64,000 bases of DNA from Streptomyces sp. I6 (lineage in GTDB: Bacteria; Actinomycetota; Actinomycetes; Streptomycetales; Streptomycetaceae). The position numbers were made by a program, and so were the translations under genes. Location of the stretch: contig RHDP01000001.1 in assembly GCA_003725745.1 (NCBI GenBank), positions 4,100,501 through 4,164,500 on the forward strand. Direction: 5' to 3'. Below, piece after piece: positions 28,924-43,367 of this stretch. The notes under the pieces were generated by a model. The model saw only the letters and a list, made by a program, of their open reading frames with translations, was not told where the DNA came from and ran no database searches. Every line of letters begins with the position of its first letter. Positions within the stretch are counted from its first letter, which is position 1.

Positions 28924-28946
28924 CCGTCAGTGGGGCCGCCTAGACT
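28924..28946 (+). promoter_or_regulatory. PafBC-type (LexA-independent) DNA-damage promoter of pcrA
   Basis: CCGTCAGTG (28924-28932), exactly eight bases, TAGACT (28941-28946). This fits the mycobacterial TTGTCRGTG-N8-TAnnnT architecture with the first two T replaced by C. Start of transcription would be only a few bases before the ATG at 28956. Confidence 0.5.
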
Positions 28947-28955
28947 CGGAGAGCG

Positions 28956-31429
28956 ATGAGCAGCCTCTTTGACGACAGTTTCCTGGCGGACCTCCGGCGG
29001 ACCCCGGCCCCGGAGGAGCCCCGCCGCCGGAGGACCACGAGCACCTTCCGGCGGAGGACGTCCCGCACGACCTCTTCGAGGGCGGGTTCGACGAGCCCGG
29101 GCCCGGTGACGCCTACTACCGGGACGGCGCCCCGCGCCCGGTCCTCGACCCGGCCGCCCTGCTGAGCGGGCTGAACGAGCAGCAGCGTGCCGCCGTCGTC
29201 CACACCGGCTCCCCGCTGCTCATCGTGGCCGGCGCCGGCTCCGGCAAGACCCGGGTGCTGACCCACCGGATCGCCCATCTGCTGGCGACCCGCGAGGTGC
29301 ACCCCGGCCAGATACTGGCGATCACGTTCACCAACAAGGCCGCGGGCGAGATGAAGGAGCGCGTCGAGCAGCTCGTCGGCCCGCGCGCCCGCGCCATGTG
29401 GGTCTCCACCTTCCACAGCGCCTGCGTCCGCATACTGCGCCGGGAGAGCAAGAAGCTCGGCTTCACGTCGTCCTTCTCGATCTACGACGCCGCCGACTCC
29501 AAGCGGCTGATGGCACTGGTCTGCCGCGATCTGGACCTCGACCCGAAGCGCTACCCGCCGAAGGCGTTCAGCGCCAAGATCTCGAACCTGAAGAACGAGC
29601 TGGTCGACGAGGAGGCCTTCGCCGCCGAGGCCGGGAGTGCCGGCCAGGCCGACGGCTCCGGGGGAGGCTTCGAGAAGACGCTGGCCGAGGCGTACCGGAT
29701 GTACCAGGCCCGCCTGCGCGAGGCCAACGCGCTGGACTTCGACGACATCATCATGACCACGGTCCATCTGCTGCAGGCGTTCCCGGAGGTCGCCGAGCAC
29801 TACCGGCGCCGGTTCCGCCACGTCCTGGTCGACGAGTACCAGGACACCAACCACGCCCAGTACACCCTCGTGCGCGAGCTGGTCGGCACGGGGTACGACG
29901 ACCTCGGCCCCGCCGAGCTGTGCGTGGTGGGCGACGCCGACCAGTCGATCTACGCCTTCCGCGGTGCCACCATCCGCAACATCCTCCAGTTCGAGGAGGA
30001 CTACCCGGACGCCACCACGATCCTGCTCGAGCAGAACTACCGCTCGTCCCAGACGATCCTCTCCGCGGCCAACGCGGTGATCGAGCGCAACGAGAGCCGC
30101 CGTCCCAAGAACCTGTGGACGAACGCGGGCGCCGGCGCGCGGATCACCGGCTACGTCGCGGACACGGAGCACGACGAGGCCCAGTTCGTCGCCGACGAGA
30201 TCGACCGGCTGGCGGACGCGGGCGAGGCCAGGGCCGGCGACGTGGCGGTCTTCTACCGGACCAACGCGCAGTCCCGCGTCTTCGAGGAGATCTTCATCCG
30301 CGTCGGCCTGCCCTACAAGGTCGTCGGCGGTGTGCGCTTCTACGAGCGCAAGGAGGTCCGGGACGTCCTGGCGTACCTGCGGGTCCTCGCCAACCCCGAG
30401 GACAACGTGCCGCTGCGGCGCATCCTGAACGTACCGAAGCGCGGCATCGGCGAGCGCGCCGAGGCGATGATCGACGCCCTCGCGCTGCGCGAGAGGATCA
30501 CCTTCCCGCAGGCTCTGCGCCGCGTCGACGAGGCGTACGGCATGGCCGCCCGCTCCGCCAACGCCGTGAAGCGCTTCAACACGCTCATGGAGGAGCTGCG
30601 CACCGTCGTCGACTCGGGCGCCGGTCCCGCGGTGGTGCTGGAAGCCGTGCTGGAGCGGACCGGCTATCTCGCCGAACTGCAGGCGTCCACCGACCCCCAG
30701 GACGAGACCCGTATCGAGAACCTGCAGGAACTCGCGGCGGTGGCCCTGGAGTTCGAGCAGGAGCGCGGCGCCGAGGAGGGATCGGGCACCCTCGCCGAGT
30801 TCCTGGAGCAGGTCGCGCTCGTCGCCGACTCCGACCAGATCCCCGACGAGGACGAGGAGGGCAGCGGCGTCATCACGCTGATGACGCTGCACACCGCGAA
30901 GGGCCTGGAGTTCCCCGTCGTGTTCCTCACCGGCATGGAGGACGGCGTCTTCCCGCACATGCGGGCGCTCGGCCAGACCAAGGAACTGGAGGAGGAGCGC
31001 CGGCTGGCGTACGTGGGGATCACCCGCGCCCGCGAGCGCCTCTATCTGACGCGTTCCTCGATGCGCAGCGCCTGGGGCCAGCCCGCCTACAACCCGCCCT
31101 CGCGCTTCCTGGAGGAGATCCCGGACGCCCACATGGAGTGGAAGCGGACGGGCCGGATGGCGGCGCCCGCCGGGCCGGCGTCCGGTATCGCCTCGGCACT
31201 GTCGTCGTCCCGGTCCCGCTCCGGCCCGTCCGGCTTCGCGACCCGGCGGACGACGGACAAGCCGGTGATCGCCCTGGCCGTCGGGGACCGGGTCACCCAC
31301 GACCAGTTCGGGCTGGGCACCGTGACGGCGGTGACGGGTTCGGGTGGTGACGCCCAGGCGACGATCGACTTCGGTGACGCCAAGCCGAAGCGGCTGCTGC
31401 TGCGGTACGCGCCGGTGGAGAAGCTCTGA
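28956..31429 (+). CDS. pcrA: UvrD/PcrA family DNA helicase (frameshifted near the start)
   Basis: ATP-dependent 3'-5' helicase of superfamily 1, used in nucleotide excision repair and in clearing RecA and stalled forks. ATG at 28956 gives MSSLFDDSFLADL; one C missing in GAGCCCCGCCGCC near 29015 moves the frame, and repair gives EEPPPPEDHEHLPAEDVPH and then LNEQQRAAVVHTGSPLLIVAGAGSGKTR. Motifs: Walker A (AGAGSGKTR), Ia (ITFTNKAAGEM), II (VLVDEYQDTN), III (GDADQSIYAFRGA), IV (LEQNYRSS), V (LMTLHTAKGLEFP) and VI (LAYVGITRAR). The C-terminus has the Tudor-like domain (AVGDRVTHDQFGLGTV). Its promoter resembles a DNA-damage element. Confidence 0.94.
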
Positions 31430-35469: not shown

Positions 35470-37077
35470 CTAAGCCGCCAGCTCGGCGTGCATCGCCGCA
35501 CGCAGCCGGAGCGTCGAGACCAGTCGCCGGAAGGCCTCGGACCAGTAGCCGCCCGCTCCCGGTGACGCCCCTTCGGGCTCGTCGGGGGTGGCGGTGAGGA
35601 GCTCGAGGCGGCTCGCCTCATCGGGATCGAGGCAGCGCTCCGCGAGCCCCATGACTCCGCTGAAGCTCCACGGGTAGCTCCCCGCGTCCCGGGCGATGTC
35701 GAGCGCGTCGACCACCGCACGGCCGAGCGGCCCCGCCCATGGCACCGGGCAGACGCCGAGCAGCTGGAACGCCTCGGACAGGCCGTGCACGGAGATGAAC
35801 CCGGCGACCCATGCGGCCCGTTCCCCCGCCGGGAGCGTCGCGAGCAGCTTCGCCCGCTCGGCGAGCGAGGACGCGCCCGGGCCCGTCGCGGTCGGCTGGG
35901 AGGGCACCCCCAGCAGCGCCCGGGCCCAGTCCGCGTCGTGCTGCCGCACGGCCGCACGGCACCAGGCGGCGTGCAGCTCGTCGCCCCAGCCGTCGGCGGC
36001 CGGCAGGGCGACGATCTCCTCCGGCGTCCGGCCGCCCAGCCGCTCCGGCCAGGTGGCGAGCGGGGCCGCTTCCACCAGCTGGCCGAGCCACCAGGAACGT
36101 TCGCCACGCCCGGAGGGGGCGGTCGGGACGACTCCGGCGCGCTCCATTTCGGCGTCGCAGGCGTGCGGCGCCTCGACGGCGATCGCCGCGACGGCCGCCG
36201 TGCGGTCCAGGCCGACACACTCCGCCGCGCGGGCCGCCATCCGCCCGGCGAGTGCGGAGCCCGGAAGCGCGGACAGCAGTTCGGCCGCTGTCGCCCGGAC
36301 GTTGCGGCTGCGGTCGGACAGCGCCCGGTCCAGGAACGGCTCGTCCGCGTCGGAGAGCCCCGTGCGCAGCGAGTCCAGGAACATCAGCCGGTCCTCGGCC
36401 CGTTCGGTCCGCCAGGTCTCCGACAGCAGCGCCACCGCCGCAGCCGGATCGTGCGCGCGTACCGATCCCAGCAGGGCGACCCGCTCCGCGAACAGGCCCT
36501 CCTCCCACAGTCGGCGGACGGCGTGCCCGTCCCCGGGCGCCGGCAGGGCCGTGCCCGCCGCGGTGCCGCGGAGGGCGAACCTCCACTCGGCGTTGTGACC
36601 GGCCAGCCAGATCCCGCGCGGCCCGGCGAAGCGCAGCGCCAGGGGCCGCAGATCGGTGCGGGCGCGGGCGGCGTCCAGCAGGGCGGGCAGTGCCGAGGCC
36701 GGTGCGCGGTAGCCGCGCGCCTCGGCGGCGGCGAGCCACTGCGGCAGGAGTTCGGTCAGGTCCGGCGCGGCTCCCCGCCGCCCGGCGGAGCCCGCGGGCG
36801 CGGCCCGGTCGGCGAGCAGTGCGGCCAGCCGCCGTCGGGCGGGCCCGGGCAGCTCCCGCCGGTCGTCCCGTGGCGCGGGATCCGGGCGGGGCCGGGCCGC
36901 CGCCGGCCGCAGTCCGGCTCGACGCCGCACCGTGTGGACCGCTGCGGCGTCGAGCAGTGCCAGGGGTGCCCGGCCGCCCGGTGCCGGCACACCGTCCGGC
37001 GGGGTGCGCCGGTCGGTGCCGAGCAGCGCCGAGGTGACGAGATCGTCCCAGGACGTCGTACGGGTGGTGCGGGACAT
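35470..37077 (-). CDS. DUF5691-family protein of the SWIM/MoxR/VWA system
   Basis: ATG at 37077, 535 residues, intact. The N-terminus SWDDLVTSALLGTDRRTPP is typical of DUF5691. The rest is largely helical, in HEAT-like units (LLSETWRTERAEDRLMFLDSLRTGL; LSDRSRNVRATAAELLSALPGSALA), suggesting a protein-binding scaffold. No catalytic motif is visible. It lies 116 bases downstream of the SWIM gene on the same strand, most likely in one transcript from the DNA-damage-type promoter at 38565-38587. The family is regularly found with the SWIM, MoxR, DUF5682 and VWA genes seen here; its role is unknown. Confidence 0.85.
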   Translation of the reverse strand: MSRTTRTTSWDDLVTSALLGTDRRTPPDGVPAPGGRAPLALLDAAAVHTVRRRAGLRPAAARPRPDPAPRDDRRELPGPARRRLAALLADRAAPAGSAGRRGAAPDLTELLPQWLAAAEARGYRAPASALPALLDAARARTDLRPLALRFAGPRGIWLAGHNAEWRFALRGTAAGTALPAPGDGHAVRRLWEEGLFAERVALLGSVRAHDPAAAVALLSETWRTERAEDRLMFLDSLRTGLSDADEPFLDRALSDRSRNVRATAAELLSALPGSALAGRMAARAAECVGLDRTAAVAAIAVEAPHACDAEMERAGVVPTAPSGRGERSWWLGQLVEAAPLATWPERLGGRTPEEIVALPAADGWGDELHAAWCRAAVRQHDADWARALLGVPSQPTATGPGASSLAERAKLLATLPAGERAAWVAGFISVHGLSEAFQLLGVCPVPWAGPLGRAVVDALDIARDAGSYPWSFSGVMGLAERCLDPDEASRLELLTATPDEPEGASPGAGGYWSEAFRRLVSTLRLRAAMHAELAA

Positions 37078-37193
37078 CGGGTCCTCCGGGTGCGTTCCAG
37101 CCTGATCCTTCGGGGAACCCCGGGCCTTCGGACCCGGGAGCGTCGCGACCTGGGCCGGCCGGTGCGGAGCGCCGCCGCATCGTTCGGCGTCGT

Positions 37194-38557
37194 TCAGGGC
37201 AGCGCGGTCGAGGTGAGGACGACCGTCTCGGGGCTGTCGCCGGACCAGGCCGCCAGCGGCGCGAAGCCGCGGTGGCCGCATTCGCCGAAGACCGTGACCG
37301 GGCCGCCGCCGGAGACGGCGAGGAGTCTCCACAGCCCGGGCCGTGACCCTGCCGCGGGCGTGACCGGCAGCGCCGACGGCCCTCCGGCGTCGGCCAGTTG
37401 CCAGCCGTCGTCGGAGGGCACCGGCACCACGTCCTCGAGCGTGACCGGCCACGCGTCCAGCCAGGGATCGTCGCGCAGCGCCCTCCCGTACGCCGCGAGC
37501 GCCTCCTCCGCGTCACCACCCGGCGGCGGCGCCTTGATGGGCACCGGGGCGCCGAACTGCTCGCGCAGTTCGGCCCGCAGCCGCCCCGCGCCCCCGTACG
37601 GCACGATCTCGGCGTCGATCATCAGCCCCGGGGCAGGGCGAGGGCCGGCGCACGCCCGGCCGCGCCGTAGGAGAGCAGCAGCGCCGTACGGCCCGTCTCC
37701 CGGCCGTGCACCCAGACCCGGCGGGTGGTCAGCCTGGCGTCCGCCGAGTCGTACTGCGCCAGCACCAGCCAGTCGTCGCGGATCGCCGGGCCCCTTGCCG
37801 TGGCCGTCAGGCCCACTCTGGTGCGCACGACGGCGGCGAGCGGTTCCGGAAGCCGGTCGATCTCCAGCCAGGCGCGGTCGAGCAGGTGCACCAGCGCGGA
37901 CTCCTCCAGCAGCCGGGCCGGCCAGCCCTGGCCGGAGCCGGGCAGGGCGCCCAACTCCCGGACGCGACCGGCCAGTCCGGGGGCCTGCGCGTCGACCATG
38001 CGCGCGGCCGTCTCCTCCCACAGCCCGTACCCGGACTGCGCGGCGGAAGCCAGTCCGCCGCGGAGCAGATCCTCGAGCCGCTGCTCGAGCTCCCGCGCCC
38101 CGGCGGTGATCCGGGCGGCCCGGCGCTCCGCCCGCCGCCGGGCCGCCCCCGGGTCCGCCGCCCTCGCGGACGGCCCGCCGTGCCCCGCCCGGTCCTCCCG
38201 CCGCCGGGCGGGCGTGCTCCGCCCGGCCAGCCATTCCTCGGCCCAGCCGGGCGCCTCGGCGTCCGGCACCGCCCCCTCGTCGCCGGCCCAGAGCAGCAGC
38301 AGCCCCAGCGCGTGCTTGCACGGGACCCGCCGGCTCGGGCAACTGCACCGGTAGGCCGGACCGGTCGAGTCGACGACCGTCCGGTACGACCTGCTGCCGC
38401 TGCCGCTGCACAGACCCCAGACGGCCCCGGTGCCGCTGCCGCCCGTCTCCGACCACGGGCCGGGCGCGCCCAGTCCGCTTCCCGCCTTGCGCGACACCGC
38501 GTCAGGAGCCAGGGCAAGCACCTGTTCAGCCGTCCAGCGCACCCCCTGCTGATTCAT
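37194..38557 (-). CDS. SWIM zinc-finger protein (frameshifted)
   Basis: ATG at 38557 (MNQQGVRWTAEQVLALAPD), about 454 residues when repaired. The SWIM motif CxCPS...PCKH is present as YRCSCPSRRVPCKHALGLLLLW near residue 70; it binds one zinc and usually mediates protein or DNA contacts. The remainder is an Ala/Arg-rich helical region and a beta-rich C-terminal domain. Near 37628 one C is missing in CTGCCCCGGGG; repair turns the premature stop into LPPGLMIDAEIVPYGG. It is the first gene of the leftward arm, and its ATG lies where the predicted transcript begins, so the message is probably leaderless. Confidence 0.87.
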
Positions 38558-38564
38558 GGCGACG

Positions 38565-38587
38565 ACGCTACGGGCAGGCACTGACAA
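38565..38587 (-). promoter_or_regulatory. PafBC-type (LexA/RecA-independent) DNA-damage promoter, SWIM arm
   Basis: Leftward TTGTCAGTG (38579-38587), exactly eight bases, TAGCGT (38565-38570). This is a perfect match to the TTGTCRGTG-N8-TAnnnT consensus established for mycobacterial RecA-independent damage promoters. The start of transcription falls at about 38558, next to the ATG at 38557. Confidence 0.8.
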
Positions 38588-38614
38588 TCCCTTCCGACCT
38601 GCGTGAACGGTCCG

Positions 38615-38637
38615 TTGTCAGTGACGTGGTGCACGGT
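38615..38637 (+). promoter_or_regulatory. PafBC-type DNA-damage promoter, MoxR arm
   Basis: Rightward TTGTCAGTG (38615-38623), exactly eight bases, CACGGT (38632-38637), one mismatch from TAnnnT. With the leftward copy it makes a perfect 9-bp inverted repeat, 27 bases apart. A 30-base leader with GGAGGGGG precedes the MoxR ATG. Confidence 0.7.
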
Positions 38638-38673
38638 GGGAACGCATTCGGCAGACGATCTGGAGGGGGATCC

Positions 38674-39786
38674 ATGACCGTGCCCGGAACCGGGGCCGAC
38701 ACCGGCACCGAGGTCCTGCGCCCGCACGCGGAGGACGCGTTCGCCGGCGAACTCGAGTCGCTGGCCCGGGCGGACGGACGGCCCCGCCCGGCCCGCTGGC
38801 GGCTGTCGCCGTGGGCGGTGGCCACCTATCTGCTCGGCGGCGCACTGCCCGACGGCACGGTGATCACCCCGAAGTACGTGGGCCCGCGCCGGATCGTCGA
38901 GGTCGCCGTCTCGACGCTCGCCACCGACCGCGCGCTGCTCCTCCTCGGTGTGCCCGGCACGGCCAAGACGTGGCTCTCGGAGCATCTGGCCGCGGCGGTC
39001 AGCGGCGACTCCACCCTGCTGGTGCAGGGCACCGCGGGCACACCGGAGGAGGCGATCCGGTACGGGTGGAACTACGCGCGGCTGCTCGCCCACGGCCCCA
39101 GCCGCGACGCCCTCGTGCCCGGCCCGGTCATGCGGGCGATGTCCGAGGGCATGACCGCACGGGTCGAGGAACTCACCCGCATCCCGGCGGACGTGCAGGA
39201 CTCGCTCATCACGATCCTGTCCGAGAAGACCCTGCCGATCCCGGAACTGGGGCAGGAGGTCCAGGCGGTCCGCGGGTTCAACCTCATCGCCACCGCCAAC
39301 GACCGCGACCGCGGCGTCAACGACCTGTCGAGCGCGCTGCGCCGCCGTTTCAGCACCGTGGTGCTGCCGCTGCCCGCGACCGCCGAGGCGGAGGTCGACA
39401 TAGTGTCCCGCCGCGTCGGCCAGATGGGGCAATCACTGGATCTGCCCGCCGCACCGGAGGGCATCGACGAGATCCGCCGGGTCGTCACCGTCTTCCGCGA
39501 ACTGCGGGACGGCGTCACGTCGGACGGGCGCACCAGGCTCAAGTCGCCCTCGGGGACGCTCTCCACCGCCGAGGCGATCTCCGTCGTCACCAACGGGCTG
39601 GCGCTCGCGGCGCACTTCGGCGACGGAGTGCTGCGGTCCGGAGACGTGGCGGCGGGCATCCATGGAGCGGTCGTCCGGGACCCGGCCGCTGACCGGGTGG
39701 TCTGGCAGGAGTATCTGGAGACGGTGGTCCGCGAGCGGGACGGCTGGAAGGACTTCTACCGGGCCTGCCGGGAGGTGAGCGCATGA
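38674..39786 (+). CDS. MoxR-family AAA+ ATPase
   Basis: ATG at 38674 with GGAGGGGG upstream, 370 residues, intact. Walker A is LLLGVPGTAKTWLSE, followed by an Asn/Glu-rich region with LTRIPADVQDSLITILSEKTLPIPELG in the Walker B and sensor area, sensor 1 IATANDRDRGVNDLS, and the Arg finger in ALRRRFSTVVLPLP. MoxR ATPases are chaperone-like machines that load or remodel metal-enzyme or membrane complexes, normally with a VWA partner; that partner is two genes downstream. Its stop overlaps the start of the DUF5682 gene (ATGA), so the three rightward genes are translationally coupled. Confidence 0.93.
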   Translation: MTVPGTGADTGTEVLRPHAEDAFAGELESLARADGRPRPARWRLSPWAVATYLLGGALPDGTVITPKYVGPRRIVEVAVSTLATDRALLLLGVPGTAKTWLSEHLAAAVSGDSTLLVQGTAGTPEEAIRYGWNYARLLAHGPSRDALVPGPVMRAMSEGMTARVEELTRIPADVQDSLITILSEKTLPIPELGQEVQAVRGFNLIATANDRDRGVNDLSSALRRRFSTVVLPLPATAEAEVDIVSRRVGQMGQSLDLPAAPEGIDEIRRVVTVFRELRDGVTSDGRTRLKSPSGTLSTAEAISVVTNGLALAAHFGDGVLRSGDVAAGIHGAVVRDPAADRVVWQEYLETVVRERDGWKDFYRACREVSA

Positions 39787-42181
39787 CGGGGCGGACGGAG
39801 TCCCCGCCCCGGGCGCCCGGGGGCGCGGGGCACCCGGACCGGGGGTGGCCGGGCGGCGGGCCCGTGGTGCTCGGCGTGCGGCACCACGGGCCGGGCTCGG
39901 CCAGGGCGGTGCTGGCCGCGCTGGACGCGGCGGAGCCGGGGGCCGTACTGATCGAAGGCCCCCCTGAGGCGGACGCGCTGCTGCCGCTCGCCGCCGACGC
40001 CGGGATGGTGCCGCCCGTGGCCCTGCTGGCCCACGCGGTGGACGACCCGGGGCGCGCGGCCTTCTGGCCGTTCGCCGGTTTCTCCCCGGAGTGGGTGGCG
40101 CTCCGCTGGGCGCTGGCCCGCGACGTGGCGGTGCGGTTCATCGACCTGCCCGCCGCCCACACCCTGGCCGCCGACCCCTCATGGGGCGACGAGGCGGACG
40201 CCGCTCCCGGTGCCGAGCCGCTGCCGCGTGCCGACCCGATCGGCGCACTCGCCGAAGCCGCCGGGTACGACGACCCGGAGCGCTGGTGGGAGGACGTGGT
40301 CGAGCACCGCACGGGCCCGGACGAGACGGGGCGTGCGGACGCGTGGGGACGTGCGGGCCCGGCGGGCCGCGTTCTCGCACCGTTCGCCGCCGTCGGGGAG
40401 GCGATGGCCGCCCTCCGCGAGCGGCACGGCCGCGGAGGCCATCCCCGGGACCTCGTCCGCGAGGCCCATATGCGGATCCAGCTGCGGGCGGCACGGCGGG
40501 AGTTCGGGGACGAGGTGGCAGTCGTCTGCGGCGCCTGGCACGTGCCGGCGCTGACGGCCCCGTCGACCGCCGCGGCGGACCGCGCCCTGCTGAAGGGCCT
40601 GCCGAGGGTCAGGACCGAGGTGACCTGGGTGCCCTGGACACACCGCAGGCTCGTCCGCCGCGGGGCACCCCCGGGGCCGGGCTCCGCGGGAGGATACGGG
40701 GCGGGTATCGAGGCACCGGGCTGGTACGCCCATCTGTTCGACGCCCCCGACCGGCCCGTGGAGCGCTGGATCACCAGGGCGGCCGGGCTGCTCAGGGACG
40801 AGGACCGGATGGTGTCCTCCGCCCATGTCATCGAGGCCGTCCGGCTGGCCCGGACCCTCGCGGTCCTGCGCGACCGCCCGCTCGCCGGGCTCGGGGAGAC
40901 GACCGACGCGATCCGGGCCGTCATGTGCGACGGCTCGGACGTCGCCCTCGCGCTGGTGCACGACAGGCTGACCATCGGGGACGTTCTCGGTGAGGTCCCG
41001 GACGCGGCCCCGGCGGTGCCGCTGCGGCGCGATCTGGCCCGCCTCCAGCGCAGCCTGCGGCTCAGACCGGAGCTGTCCGAGCGGGAGCTGGAACTCGATC
41101 TGCGCAAGGACAACGACACCGCGCGCAGCCGGCTGCTGCACCGGCTGCGGCTCCTCGGTGTCGGCTGGGGGCGCCCGGAGGCGGGCCGCGGCTCGACCGG
41201 CACGTTCCGCGAGACCTGGCGGCTGCGCTGGGAGCCCGAGCTGTACGTCAGGGTCGCCGAGGCGGGCGTCTGGGGGACCACCGTGCTCTCCGCGGCAACC
41301 GCCAAGGCCGAGTCGGAGGCGGCCTCGGCGGCTGCCCTGGCCGATGTCACCGCCCTGGCCGAGCGATGTCTGCTCGCCGGACTCCCCGCGGCCCTCCCGG
41401 TGGTGATGCGGGCGGTCGCCGACCGGGCCGCGCTGGACGCGGACGCGGGCCGTCTCGCCGAGGCCCTGCCCGCGCTCGCCCGCTCGCTGCGGTACGGGGA
41501 CGTACGGGCGACGGATACCGCGGCGCTCGGTGAGGTGGCCGCCGGGCTCGCCGAGCGCGTCTGCGTCGGGCTGCCGCCCGCGTGCGCGGGGCTCGACGCC
41601 GACGCGGCGGCCCGGATGCGCGGCCGGCTCGACGGAGTCCACAGCGCGCTCGCACTGCTGCCGCAGGCGGCGGAGTTGGGCGGGCGCTGGGCGGACGCGC
41701 TGCGCGGAATCGTCCAGCGGGACACCGTGCCCGGGTTGATACGGGGGCGTTCGGCCAGGCTGCTGCTGGACGACGGACGTCTCGCCGGGGAGGAGGCGGC
41801 CCGGCTGATGGGCCTCGCCCTCTCGCCCGGTACCCCGCCCGCCGACGCGGCAGCGTGGATCGAGGGCTTCCTCGGCGACGCGCCGGGGGCGGGTTGCTCC
41901 TCGTCCACGACGAGCGCCTCCGCGGCCTCGTCGACGCCTGGCTGACCTCGGTTCCGGCCGGCGCGTTCACGGACGTCCTCCCGCTGCTCCGCCGCACGTT
42001 CTCGGCGTACGAGGCGGGTGTGCGCCGCACCCTCGGCGAACTGGCACGGACGGGGCGCGCGCCCTCCGGGCCGGTGGGGGAGGGGGCCGGGGCGCCCGGC
42101 TTCGGGGCCGGACTCGACGAGCGGCGGGCCGACGCGGTGCTGCCCGTACTGCGGCTGATTCTGGAGGGGGAGCGGGTGTGA
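39783..42181 (+). CDS. DUF5682-family protein of the MoxR/VWA system (frameshifted)
   Basis: ATG at 39783 overlaps the MoxR stop. About 799 residues after repair. The N-terminus VVLGVRHHGPGSARAVLAAL and the segment VLIEGPPEADALLPLAA are hallmarks of DUF5682; the His residues and EGPPE motif resemble the erythromycin-esterase/TIKI-like metal-dependent fold. WHVPAL near residue 250 adds another conserved His. The C-terminal half is helical. One G is missing near 41893 (GCGGGTTGC); repair gives GAGGLLLVHDERLRGLVDAWL and continues to the stop at 42181. A hydrolase role is possible from the motifs, but no activity is established. Confidence 0.84.
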
Positions 42182-43367
42182 GCGGGACGGAGGCGGCGGG
42201 GGCTCCGCGGGAGCGGGGACGGCGTCCGACGAAAGGCTGAGGCGCTGGCGGCTGGTGCTCGGCGGGGGGCCGGCGGAGGGCACGGGCCGCGCTCTGACGG
42301 GACCGGACCAGGCCATGGACGGTGCGCTTGCCTCGCTCTACGGAAGCGGCGACGGCCAGGAGGGGCGCAGCGGCGGACGTTCGGCCGGACTGGCGGGCTC
42401 CGCGCCCTCCGTCGCCCGCTGGCTGGGCGACATCCGTACGTACTTCCCGAGTTCCGTCGTCCAGGTCATGCAGCGGGACGCCGTCGACCGGCTCGGGCTG
42501 TCCGCGCTGCTGCTGGAACCCGAGATGCTGGAGGCCGTCGAGGTGGACGTCCATCTGGTCGGCACGCTGCTGTCGCTCAGTGAGGCGATGCCGGAGACCA
42601 CGAGGGAGACCGCCCGCGCGGTCGTCCGGAAGGTCGTCGGGGAGTTGGAGAGGCGGCTGGCGACACGCACCCGCGCCGCGCTCACCGGCGCGCTCGACCG
42701 TGGCGCGCGCGTCAGCCGGCCCCGGCACCGGGACATCGACTGGGACCGCACGATCCGGGCGAACCTCGGGAACTACCTTCCCGAGTACGCCACGGTGGTG
42801 CCCGGGCGGCTCATCGGTCACGGCCGAGCCGCCCGGTCCGTGCGGAAGGACGTCGTGCTGTGCGTCGACCAGTCCGGTTCGATGGCGGCGTCCGTCGTCC
42901 ACGCCTCGGTGTTCGGCGCGGTCCTCGCCTCCATACGGACGATCACGACGCGGCTCGTCGTCTTCGACACCGCGGTCGTCGACCTGACGGACCGGCTTGA
43001 CGACCCCGTCGACGTCCTGTTCTGCACCCGGCTCGGCGGCGGCACGGACATCAACCGCGCCCTCGCGTACTGCCAGTCGCAGATCACCCGGCCCGCCGAC
43101 ACCGTCGTCGTGCTGATCAGCGATCTCTACGAGGGCGGTGTACCCGACGGAATGCTGAAGCGGGTCGCCTCGATGAAGGCCTCCGGTGTGCAGTTCGTCG
43201 CCCTGCTCGCCCTCTCGGACGAGGGAACGCCGGCGTACGACCGTGATCACGCGGCGGCGCTGGCGGCCCTGGGCGCACCCGCGTTCGCGTGCACGCCCGA
43301 CCTGTTCCCCGACGTCATGGCGGCCGCGATCGAGAAGAGGCCGCTGCCGGTTCCGGCCGGCATATGA
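42178..43367 (+). CDS. VWA-domain protein, partner of the MoxR ATPase (frameshifted near the start)
   Basis: GTG at 42178 overlaps the DUF5682 stop. The first reading frame ends early; adding one G to the GCGGGGACGG run near 42217 gives ERGTASDERLRRWRLVLGGG, and the frame then runs to 43367. About 396 residues. After a helical N-terminal region (MDGALASLYG, WLGDIRTYFPSSVVQVMQRDA), a von Willebrand A domain begins with VLCVDQSGSMAASVVHASV, an intact MIDAS motif DxSxS, with the later Thr and Asp in TRLGGGTDINRAL and LISDLYEGG. VWA proteins bind metal and act with MoxR as adaptors. It closes the rightward arm. Confidence 0.88.

Follow-up and report, generated by a model that had tools for sequence, protein, structure and literature searches.

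What switches on two divergent genes separated by a gap of 116 nt, and do the two arms that start there belong to one system? In the stretch of Streptomyces sp. I6 DNA analysed here (64,000 nt, hereafter the window), the gap occupies positions 38558-38673, between the ATG of a SWIM gene at 38557(-) and the ATG of a MoxR gene at 38674(+). A sequence-only reading had described in it an inverted pair of TTGTCAGTG, each copy followed after eight nucleotides by TAGCGT on one strand and CACGGT on the other, and this description was confirmed with exact coordinates. The left box, ahead of the SWIM gene, runs from 38587 to 38565(-) as TTGTCAGTG CCTGCCCG TAGCGT, without mismatches to the RecA-NDp/PafBC promoter motif. 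The right box, ahead of the MoxR gene, lies at 38615-38637(+) and reads TTGTCAGTG ACGTGGTG CACGGT. Both have the TTGTCRGTG box and an 8-nt spacer to the -10 element, so that the exact spacing claimed for both strands holds, with a single mismatch in the right -10: C replaces T at its first base, whereas the A and the final T of TAnnnT are kept. The left box, as judged from its sequence, is a member of the known class. Since the right -10 departs from TAnnnT, the right box is described here as class-like and not filed as a strict member; it would be expected to work like the class with an off-consensus -10.

The class itself is not new, as Streptomyces reports from 2002 to 2016 attest. Its consensus is quoted as tTGTCRgtg-8 nt-TannnT (PMC5656591), and the Streptomyces rimosus recA promoter was given as TTGTCAGTGGC-N6-TAGggT (Ahel 2002, as cited in PMC2375139). 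In 2008, related motifs were reported for 67 S. coelicolor genes, repair genes being the most prominent (PMC2375139), and in 2016 a RecA-NDp promoter was described ahead of the UV-inducible SCO6735 (PMC5087735). PafBC is reported to act through sigma adaptation, using a -26 motif, with single-stranded DNA as its activating signal (PMC11804915).

Taken by itself, the window gives weak evidence for such promoters: at up to two mismatches it holds 3 matches to the motif against 0.93 expected, and 6 of 100 shuffles reach 3. The third match, at 28924(+), stands directly before the ATG of a UvrD/PcrA-type gene, in line with the earlier statement that the pcrA promoter is the sole other intergenic match in the window. 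The LexA consensus is GAAC-N4-GTTC. Allowing one mismatch, no box of this type was present from 36,283 to 43,274, and LexA control of the locus was rejected on that basis.

A scan of the whole genome (7.05 Mb) and of other Streptomyces had been suggested together with the initial description. Exact copies of the motif number 9 in this genome, a reversed-pattern control giving 0; allowing one mismatch, there are 57 against 2. The nine exact sites precede genes for a UDG-type glycosylase, UvrB, a RadA-like protein, RecA, an ECF sigma factor and the SWIM protein, plus three genes without a family (L001, L003 and L005). Among the one-mismatch sites there are repair and replication genes, named, like the others, from their Pfam domains: DinB-type polymerase, RarA, PD-(D/E)XK nuclease, an exonuclease-BRCT protein, PolIII alpha, DnaX and DnaB, further RecD2, AlkZ-like, UvrD-like, RecG, Lhr, RuvC and others. 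Genes with no clear link to repair also occur there (MoaA, TetR, glyoxalase, ABC permease, esterase, PrsW, amine oxidase and ribosomal S6). Overall, 56 of the 57 sites were examined, the window's right box being left out, and of 37 downstream proteins scanned with Pfam, 17-18 belonged to repair or replication families, whereas about half could not be clearly tied to repair or had no family. A back-to-back arrangement of exact boxes, 15-45 nt apart, was seen just once in this genome and is present in 21 of 61 genomes of the family, the control giving 0 in each case; only some of these places have been matched to this locus.

All 121 genomes of the genus survey carry the exact motif, in 5-44 copies against 0-2 for the control. 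In two further genomes, 44 sites were read (21 of 21 in G023 and 23 of 33 in G430): 20 precede relatives of the downstream proteins of the Streptomyces sp. I6 genome, and the other 24 have no such match or no called gene. Genes for RecA, UvrB, RuvC, UDG and the SWIM protein stand behind the motif in both. Against this stands an initial motif search in which conservation of the PafBC motif seemed to be lacking in S. venezuelae (PMC9380542). That the boxes are a chance motif or ordinary housekeeping promoters, for which the three window matches would be nothing rare, is already contradicted by the genome-wide controls of 0 and 2, by the conservation in 75 of 76 loci and by the spacer test (both below), and we give this explanation next to no credence.

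The genome also encodes PafB-, PafC- and PafA-like proteins, with WYL/WCX and HTH_PafC genes near the Pup ligase gene. PafC-like HTH domains were matched in all 16 genomes tested (weakly in G259), including genomes without motif enrichment, so the presence of PafBC alone does not explain the motif.

The start codons add a feature of their own. At 17 of the 56 sites, a long high-GC3 frame opens with its start codon exactly 7 nt past the -10, and every other offset from 0 to 20 was found at no more than two sites; so sharp a peak is the mark of leaderless transcripts. The SWIM gene has its start codon at this position, and the ATG at +7 is conserved across the orthologous loci. The SWIM mRNA is therefore likely leaderless, as had been proposed, to judge from start-codon position. 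The MoxR ATG is preceded by a purine-rich ribosome-binding stretch.

Conservation of the locus was followed through relatives of the DUF5682 protein encoded on the right arm; there are at least 580 of these, and the best 80, which were used here, comprised 79 Streptomyces records and one Streptantibioticus. SWIM and MoxR genes stand side by side in 76 of these 80 loci, the remaining four lacking SWIM or MoxR at contig ends. DUF5691, encoded beyond SWIM, was aligned in 68 of 80, the misses being mostly at contig ends; one locus (L069) had no DUF5691 match within its 14 kb stretch. The motif was kept at orthologous loci: the left box was present in 76 of 76 and both boxes in 75 (L120 is without the right one). 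In another scan, at up to two mismatches, both were found in 73 of 76, the other three having partial SWIM alignments. The left box was exact in 70 of these 73 loci, and the right -10 started with CA, not TA, in all 73.

This conservation bears on how the pair is to be understood. An inverted TTGTCAGTG pair might form one palindromic operator for a dimeric regulator of both arms, and the boxes do lie within 85 nt of each other in 49 of 75 loci (25-85 nt) and in the window. In the other 26 loci, however, they are 187-742 nt apart, each still at its own gene, and elsewhere in the genome lone boxes precede repair genes. A range from 25 to 742 nt is incompatible with a palindromic operator of fixed form and speaks for two promoters, and we consider the single operator very improbable. 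A lipoprotein-like reading frame was present inside five of five long gaps read. The box-to-box distances (L065-L144) cluster near 26, 37, 49, 61 and 85 nt, in steps of roughly a helical turn; this may reflect helical phasing, which for the clusters near 26, 37, 49 and 61 would suit an operator, or shared ancestry.

Another short element, GACCTGCG, lies between the boxes at 38596-38603 (no strand assigned); viewed from the left box it is GCAGGTC, 7-8 nt upstream. On either strand, GCAGGTC was found in 70 of 76 intervals (75 loci and the window) against a background of 0.58 per kb, chance copies not being rare in long intervals. It often stands 7-8 nt upstream of either box, and it also precedes the box of an Lhr-type helicase gene (L058), which has the same TGCAC form of -10. 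It was rejected as an upstream element of these promoters in general, being within 60 nt on either strand at only 3 of the 56 sites of this genome, namely the window locus, the Lhr-type gene and L047.

Pfam confirmed the gene content given earlier. On the left arm are a SWIM zinc-finger protein of 311 aa at 37622-38557(-) (SWIM, E 2.9e-5) and a DUF5691 protein at 35470-37452(-) (3.1e-171). On the right arm are a YehL-like MoxR-type AAA+ ATPase at 38674-39786(+) (AAA_5, 2.2e-37; 38% identity to E. coli YehL), a YehM-like DUF5682 protein at 39783-41945(+) (1.4e-253; 27% to YehM) and a YehP-like CoxE-type VWA protein at 42255-43367(+) (VWA_CoxE, 1.7e-57; 37% to YehP) with the DxSxS motif present. 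Since the conserved region of DUF5691 begins at about residue 125 of the called frame, its true start is probably near 37,080. The gene thus starts 170 to about 540 nt past the end of SWIM and may have a promoter of its own. The earlier wording that the promoters drive a five-gene system goes somewhat too far in this respect. The DUF5682 frame is broken near 41,882, the profile match continuing in another frame, and the start of the window's pcrA gene (ATG 28956) is out of frame with the helicase body at 29225. With a genome completeness of 87.42, assembly errors are likely.

The model of a DUF5691 orthologue is an alpha-solenoid (pLDDT 77.8). Against solved structures, the DUF5682 profile had no match at E <=1 and the VWA protein none at E <=0.01. 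Foldseek returned no match at E <=0.001 for the DUF5682 model, which is weak fold evidence and says nothing against other folds; the N-terminal domain may be TraB-like and would be followed by a helical-repeat tail.

MoxR-VWA cores are also part of predicted conflict systems (PMC7159879), and the boxes could be damage promoters of a defence system comparable to the MoxR-vWA ternary systems, for which damage would be no more than the trigger of expression. Weak matches to bpMoxR (22.0 bits, under the Pfam cut-off of 27) and to IetA (E 0.0078) would agree with this. Against it, the defence library (PADLOC) gave no clear match, Pfam scans of the five proteins contained no VMAP, iSTAND, FtsH or beta-propeller family, and SWIM and MoxR are neighbours in 76 of 80 loci, the others being cut by contig ends. 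We therefore regard a defence function as unlikely and keep to a machine that serves the damage response itself.

The same genes were found beyond Streptomyces in another arrangement. Among 394 genomes of the class, 92 carry DUF5691, including 53 that lie outside the genus; 40 loci were fetched and 9 came from another search, and these 49 cover 42 of the 53 genomes. A SWIM-type gene was found in 47 of them, always upstream of MoxR on the same strand, the order being SWIM, DUF5691, MoxR, DUF5682, VWA (DUF5691 was unaligned in L182, and VWA was unaligned or outside the stretch in 12). The pattern TGTC-N12-[TC]AnnnT was sought from -110 to +25 nt around the estimated SWIM start and occurred in 33 of 47 loci, whereas spacers of 8-11 and 13-16 gave 0 of 47. 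By family, it was found in 25 of 29 loci of f89, 6 of 6 of f90, the single locus of f31 and the single locus of f20 (at -84, doubtful), and in 0 of 10 loci of f3 (4), f29 (5) and f7 (1). Three of the four f89 misses (L203-L205) have a one-mismatch box and then a GTG at +7. Their SWIM-type genes have kept the C-terminal part and lost the CxC-CxH zinc-finger motif, so the zinc finger may be dispensable; with L069, which is without DUF5691, these loci indicate that not every part is indispensable.

In the f3 loci, boxes occur at one mismatch in L176 and L210 and at two in L183, and two f3 genomes gave 73 matches vs 12 in the control and 39 vs 14 at up to one mismatch. Ten other DUF5682-bearing genomes tested at this level gave 7-19 vs 3-13. 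Across genomes, the motif and a PafC-like regulator do not track simply. Upstream of SWIM in f29 (L177-L179 and L182), a -10 like TACGGT or TACCGT lies near the start codon and a CACCC-type stretch replaces TTGTCRGTG; the binding site of the regulator may have drifted there.

The ancestral state was apparently a single operon, box-SWIM-DUF5691-MoxR-DUF5682-VWA, of which the Streptomyces line inverted the first two genes. An inversion of the block of promoter, SWIM and DUF5691 would produce the Streptomyces order and would cut MoxR off from its promoter. The MoxR arm perhaps gained its own box by inverted duplication of the first. The flanks are consistent with such an event: in the 63 loci whose boxes are separated by 36 nt or more, the 18-nt stretches preceding the left and the right box had a likeness of 0.429, as against 0.317 and 0.318 for either of them with 50 other boxes and 0.338 among those others.

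Some Streptomyces have, in addition, a YehI-like DUF4132 gene, with 35% identity to YehI over 577 columns. In both loci checked (L187 and L188), this gene heads a second operon of this type, with MoxR, DUF5682 and VWA behind it, and an exact box lies 78 nt ahead of it; a WGR domain is present in the L188 gene and not in that of L187. Fifteen full or near-full relatives were collected (L271-L285; L271 is the L188 gene, L284 is cut), other matches sharing single domains. In 12 of 14 loci the gene is preceded by an exact box on its own strand, and L285 has a box with two mismatches. In L272 (G456), an exact box lies on the opposite strand, and a short N-terminal part of the protein is matched there too, perhaps through a small inversion around the promoter. 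The YehI-like protein had no match at E <=0.001 in the Streptomyces sp. I6 genome, where DUF5691 stands instead. MoxR-DUF5682 paralogues of a third kind (L169-L174, six loci) had no box at up to one mismatch, in loci reaching only 1.5 kb past DUF5682. In L189 (G235), an exact box with an ATG 6 nt downstream lies 3.4 kb upstream of a same-strand MoxR paralogue.

That the same box precedes two separate YehL-type systems argues that the class works in genome maintenance. The two systems also bear on whether the machine could be an insertase of the CoxD-CoxE or NorQD type, serving the maturation of a metalloenzyme, its damage induction being a side issue. Such a role would fit the VWA_CoxE domain and the MoxR protein, whose sole named relatives by sequence among solved structures, at E <=0.001, are Midasin and NorQ. 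Yet Pfam found no metalloenzyme or cofactor gene among the five, and a damage box shared by two distinct systems would be unexpected; an insertase seems improbable to us.

The claim of a PafBC-type promoter on each arm thus draws support from the enrichment of the motif, the repair genes downstream of it, the Paf-like genes and the conservation of both locus and exact spacing, and we hold with good confidence that the two arms have damage-type promoters. That damage induces the arms, that it does so jointly and that PafBC is required are what we infer from these promoters. In the proposed course of events, single-stranded DNA would activate PafBC, and RNA polymerase would then use two back-to-back sigma-A promoters of the RecA-NDp/PafBC class, switching on the two halves of one machine after DNA damage, with SWIM translated from a leaderless mRNA. 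The MoxR-type AAA+ motor and the VWA adaptor would form the core, to be completed by the DUF5682 partner, a helical-repeat scaffold (DUF5691) and a SWIM-type targeting subunit. By analogy with other MoxR-VWA pairs, the machine might remodel or extract protein from damaged or stalled DNA complexes; this precise action is tentative, and we would sooner bet against it than for it. The observation itself is confirmed and its interpretation supported by comparative sequence data, the best reading being a putative DNA-damage-induced AAA+/VWA remodelling machine.

A broader idea seems to us a little short of an even chance: YehL/YehM/YehP-type AAA+-VWA machines may be a widespread dedicated DNA-damage-response complex, existing in two or more flavours (SWIM-DUF5691, and YehI-like DUF4132, the latter in some cases with WGR) and placed under the damage regulator of each lineage. 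These regulators would be PafBC-type boxes in Streptomyces and relatives, DdrO for the DUF4132 operon and WGR gene of Deinococcus, and LexA for MolR in E. coli. In D. radiodurans, depletion of the damage repressor DdrO strongly raises expression of an operon with a DUF4132 protein (DRA0166) and of a WGR gene (DR2173), and LexA regulation of E. coli MolR is described in the same paper (PMC8533742). The paired promoters give a testable role, which the data suggest is coping with broken DNA, to a conserved AAA+/VWA machine with relatives including E. coli yehLMP. Moreover, a 2022 paper left a PafBC-type LexA-independent response in Streptomyces undecided, and the motif is present here in every one of the 121 genus genomes tested. 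Among the papers listed for the yeh genes, none was on function. A limited search, which took in the 2008 study apart from its supplementary gene list, yielded no literature linking the promoter class to the five-gene machine, and none of the papers listed was about the operon itself.

Compared with known systems, the promoters resemble the RecA-NDp/PafBC promoters of mycobacteria, Streptomyces recA P1 and SCO6735 in the TTGTCRGTG box, the 8-nt spacer and the -10, in standing before the same kind of repair genes and in the presence of PafBC-like genes. They differ in that two copies stand back to back, the right one with CACGGT as its -10, and in that the operon is not named in the available text of that literature. 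Among the papers listed, none tested whether such promoters depend on PafBC in Streptomyces. The E. coli K-12 genes yehI-yehK-yehL-yehM-yehP-yehQ have MoxR, DUF5682 and CoxE-type VWA homologues in the same order and also a SWIM protein. Unlike the Streptomyces locus, they include the DUF4132 protein YehI and run in one direction, and the E. coli control genome had no DUF5691 match; YehQ (614 aa) and the present SWIM protein both match Pfam SWIM but share no meaningful BLAST match. The MoxR-vWA ternary conflict systems have the MoxR-VWA core in common with this machine, whereas their third component was not found by Pfam in the five proteins. The NorQ-NorD and CoxD-CoxE chaperones are likewise MoxR-VWA pairs, with a CoxE-type VWA and with NorQ as a sequence relative, while the machine described here has additional SWIM and helical-repeat partners and a damage-type promoter. 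To the known promoter class, the present analysis adds its paired arrangement, the five conserved machine genes that follow and a box of this kind ahead of a second YehL-type system.
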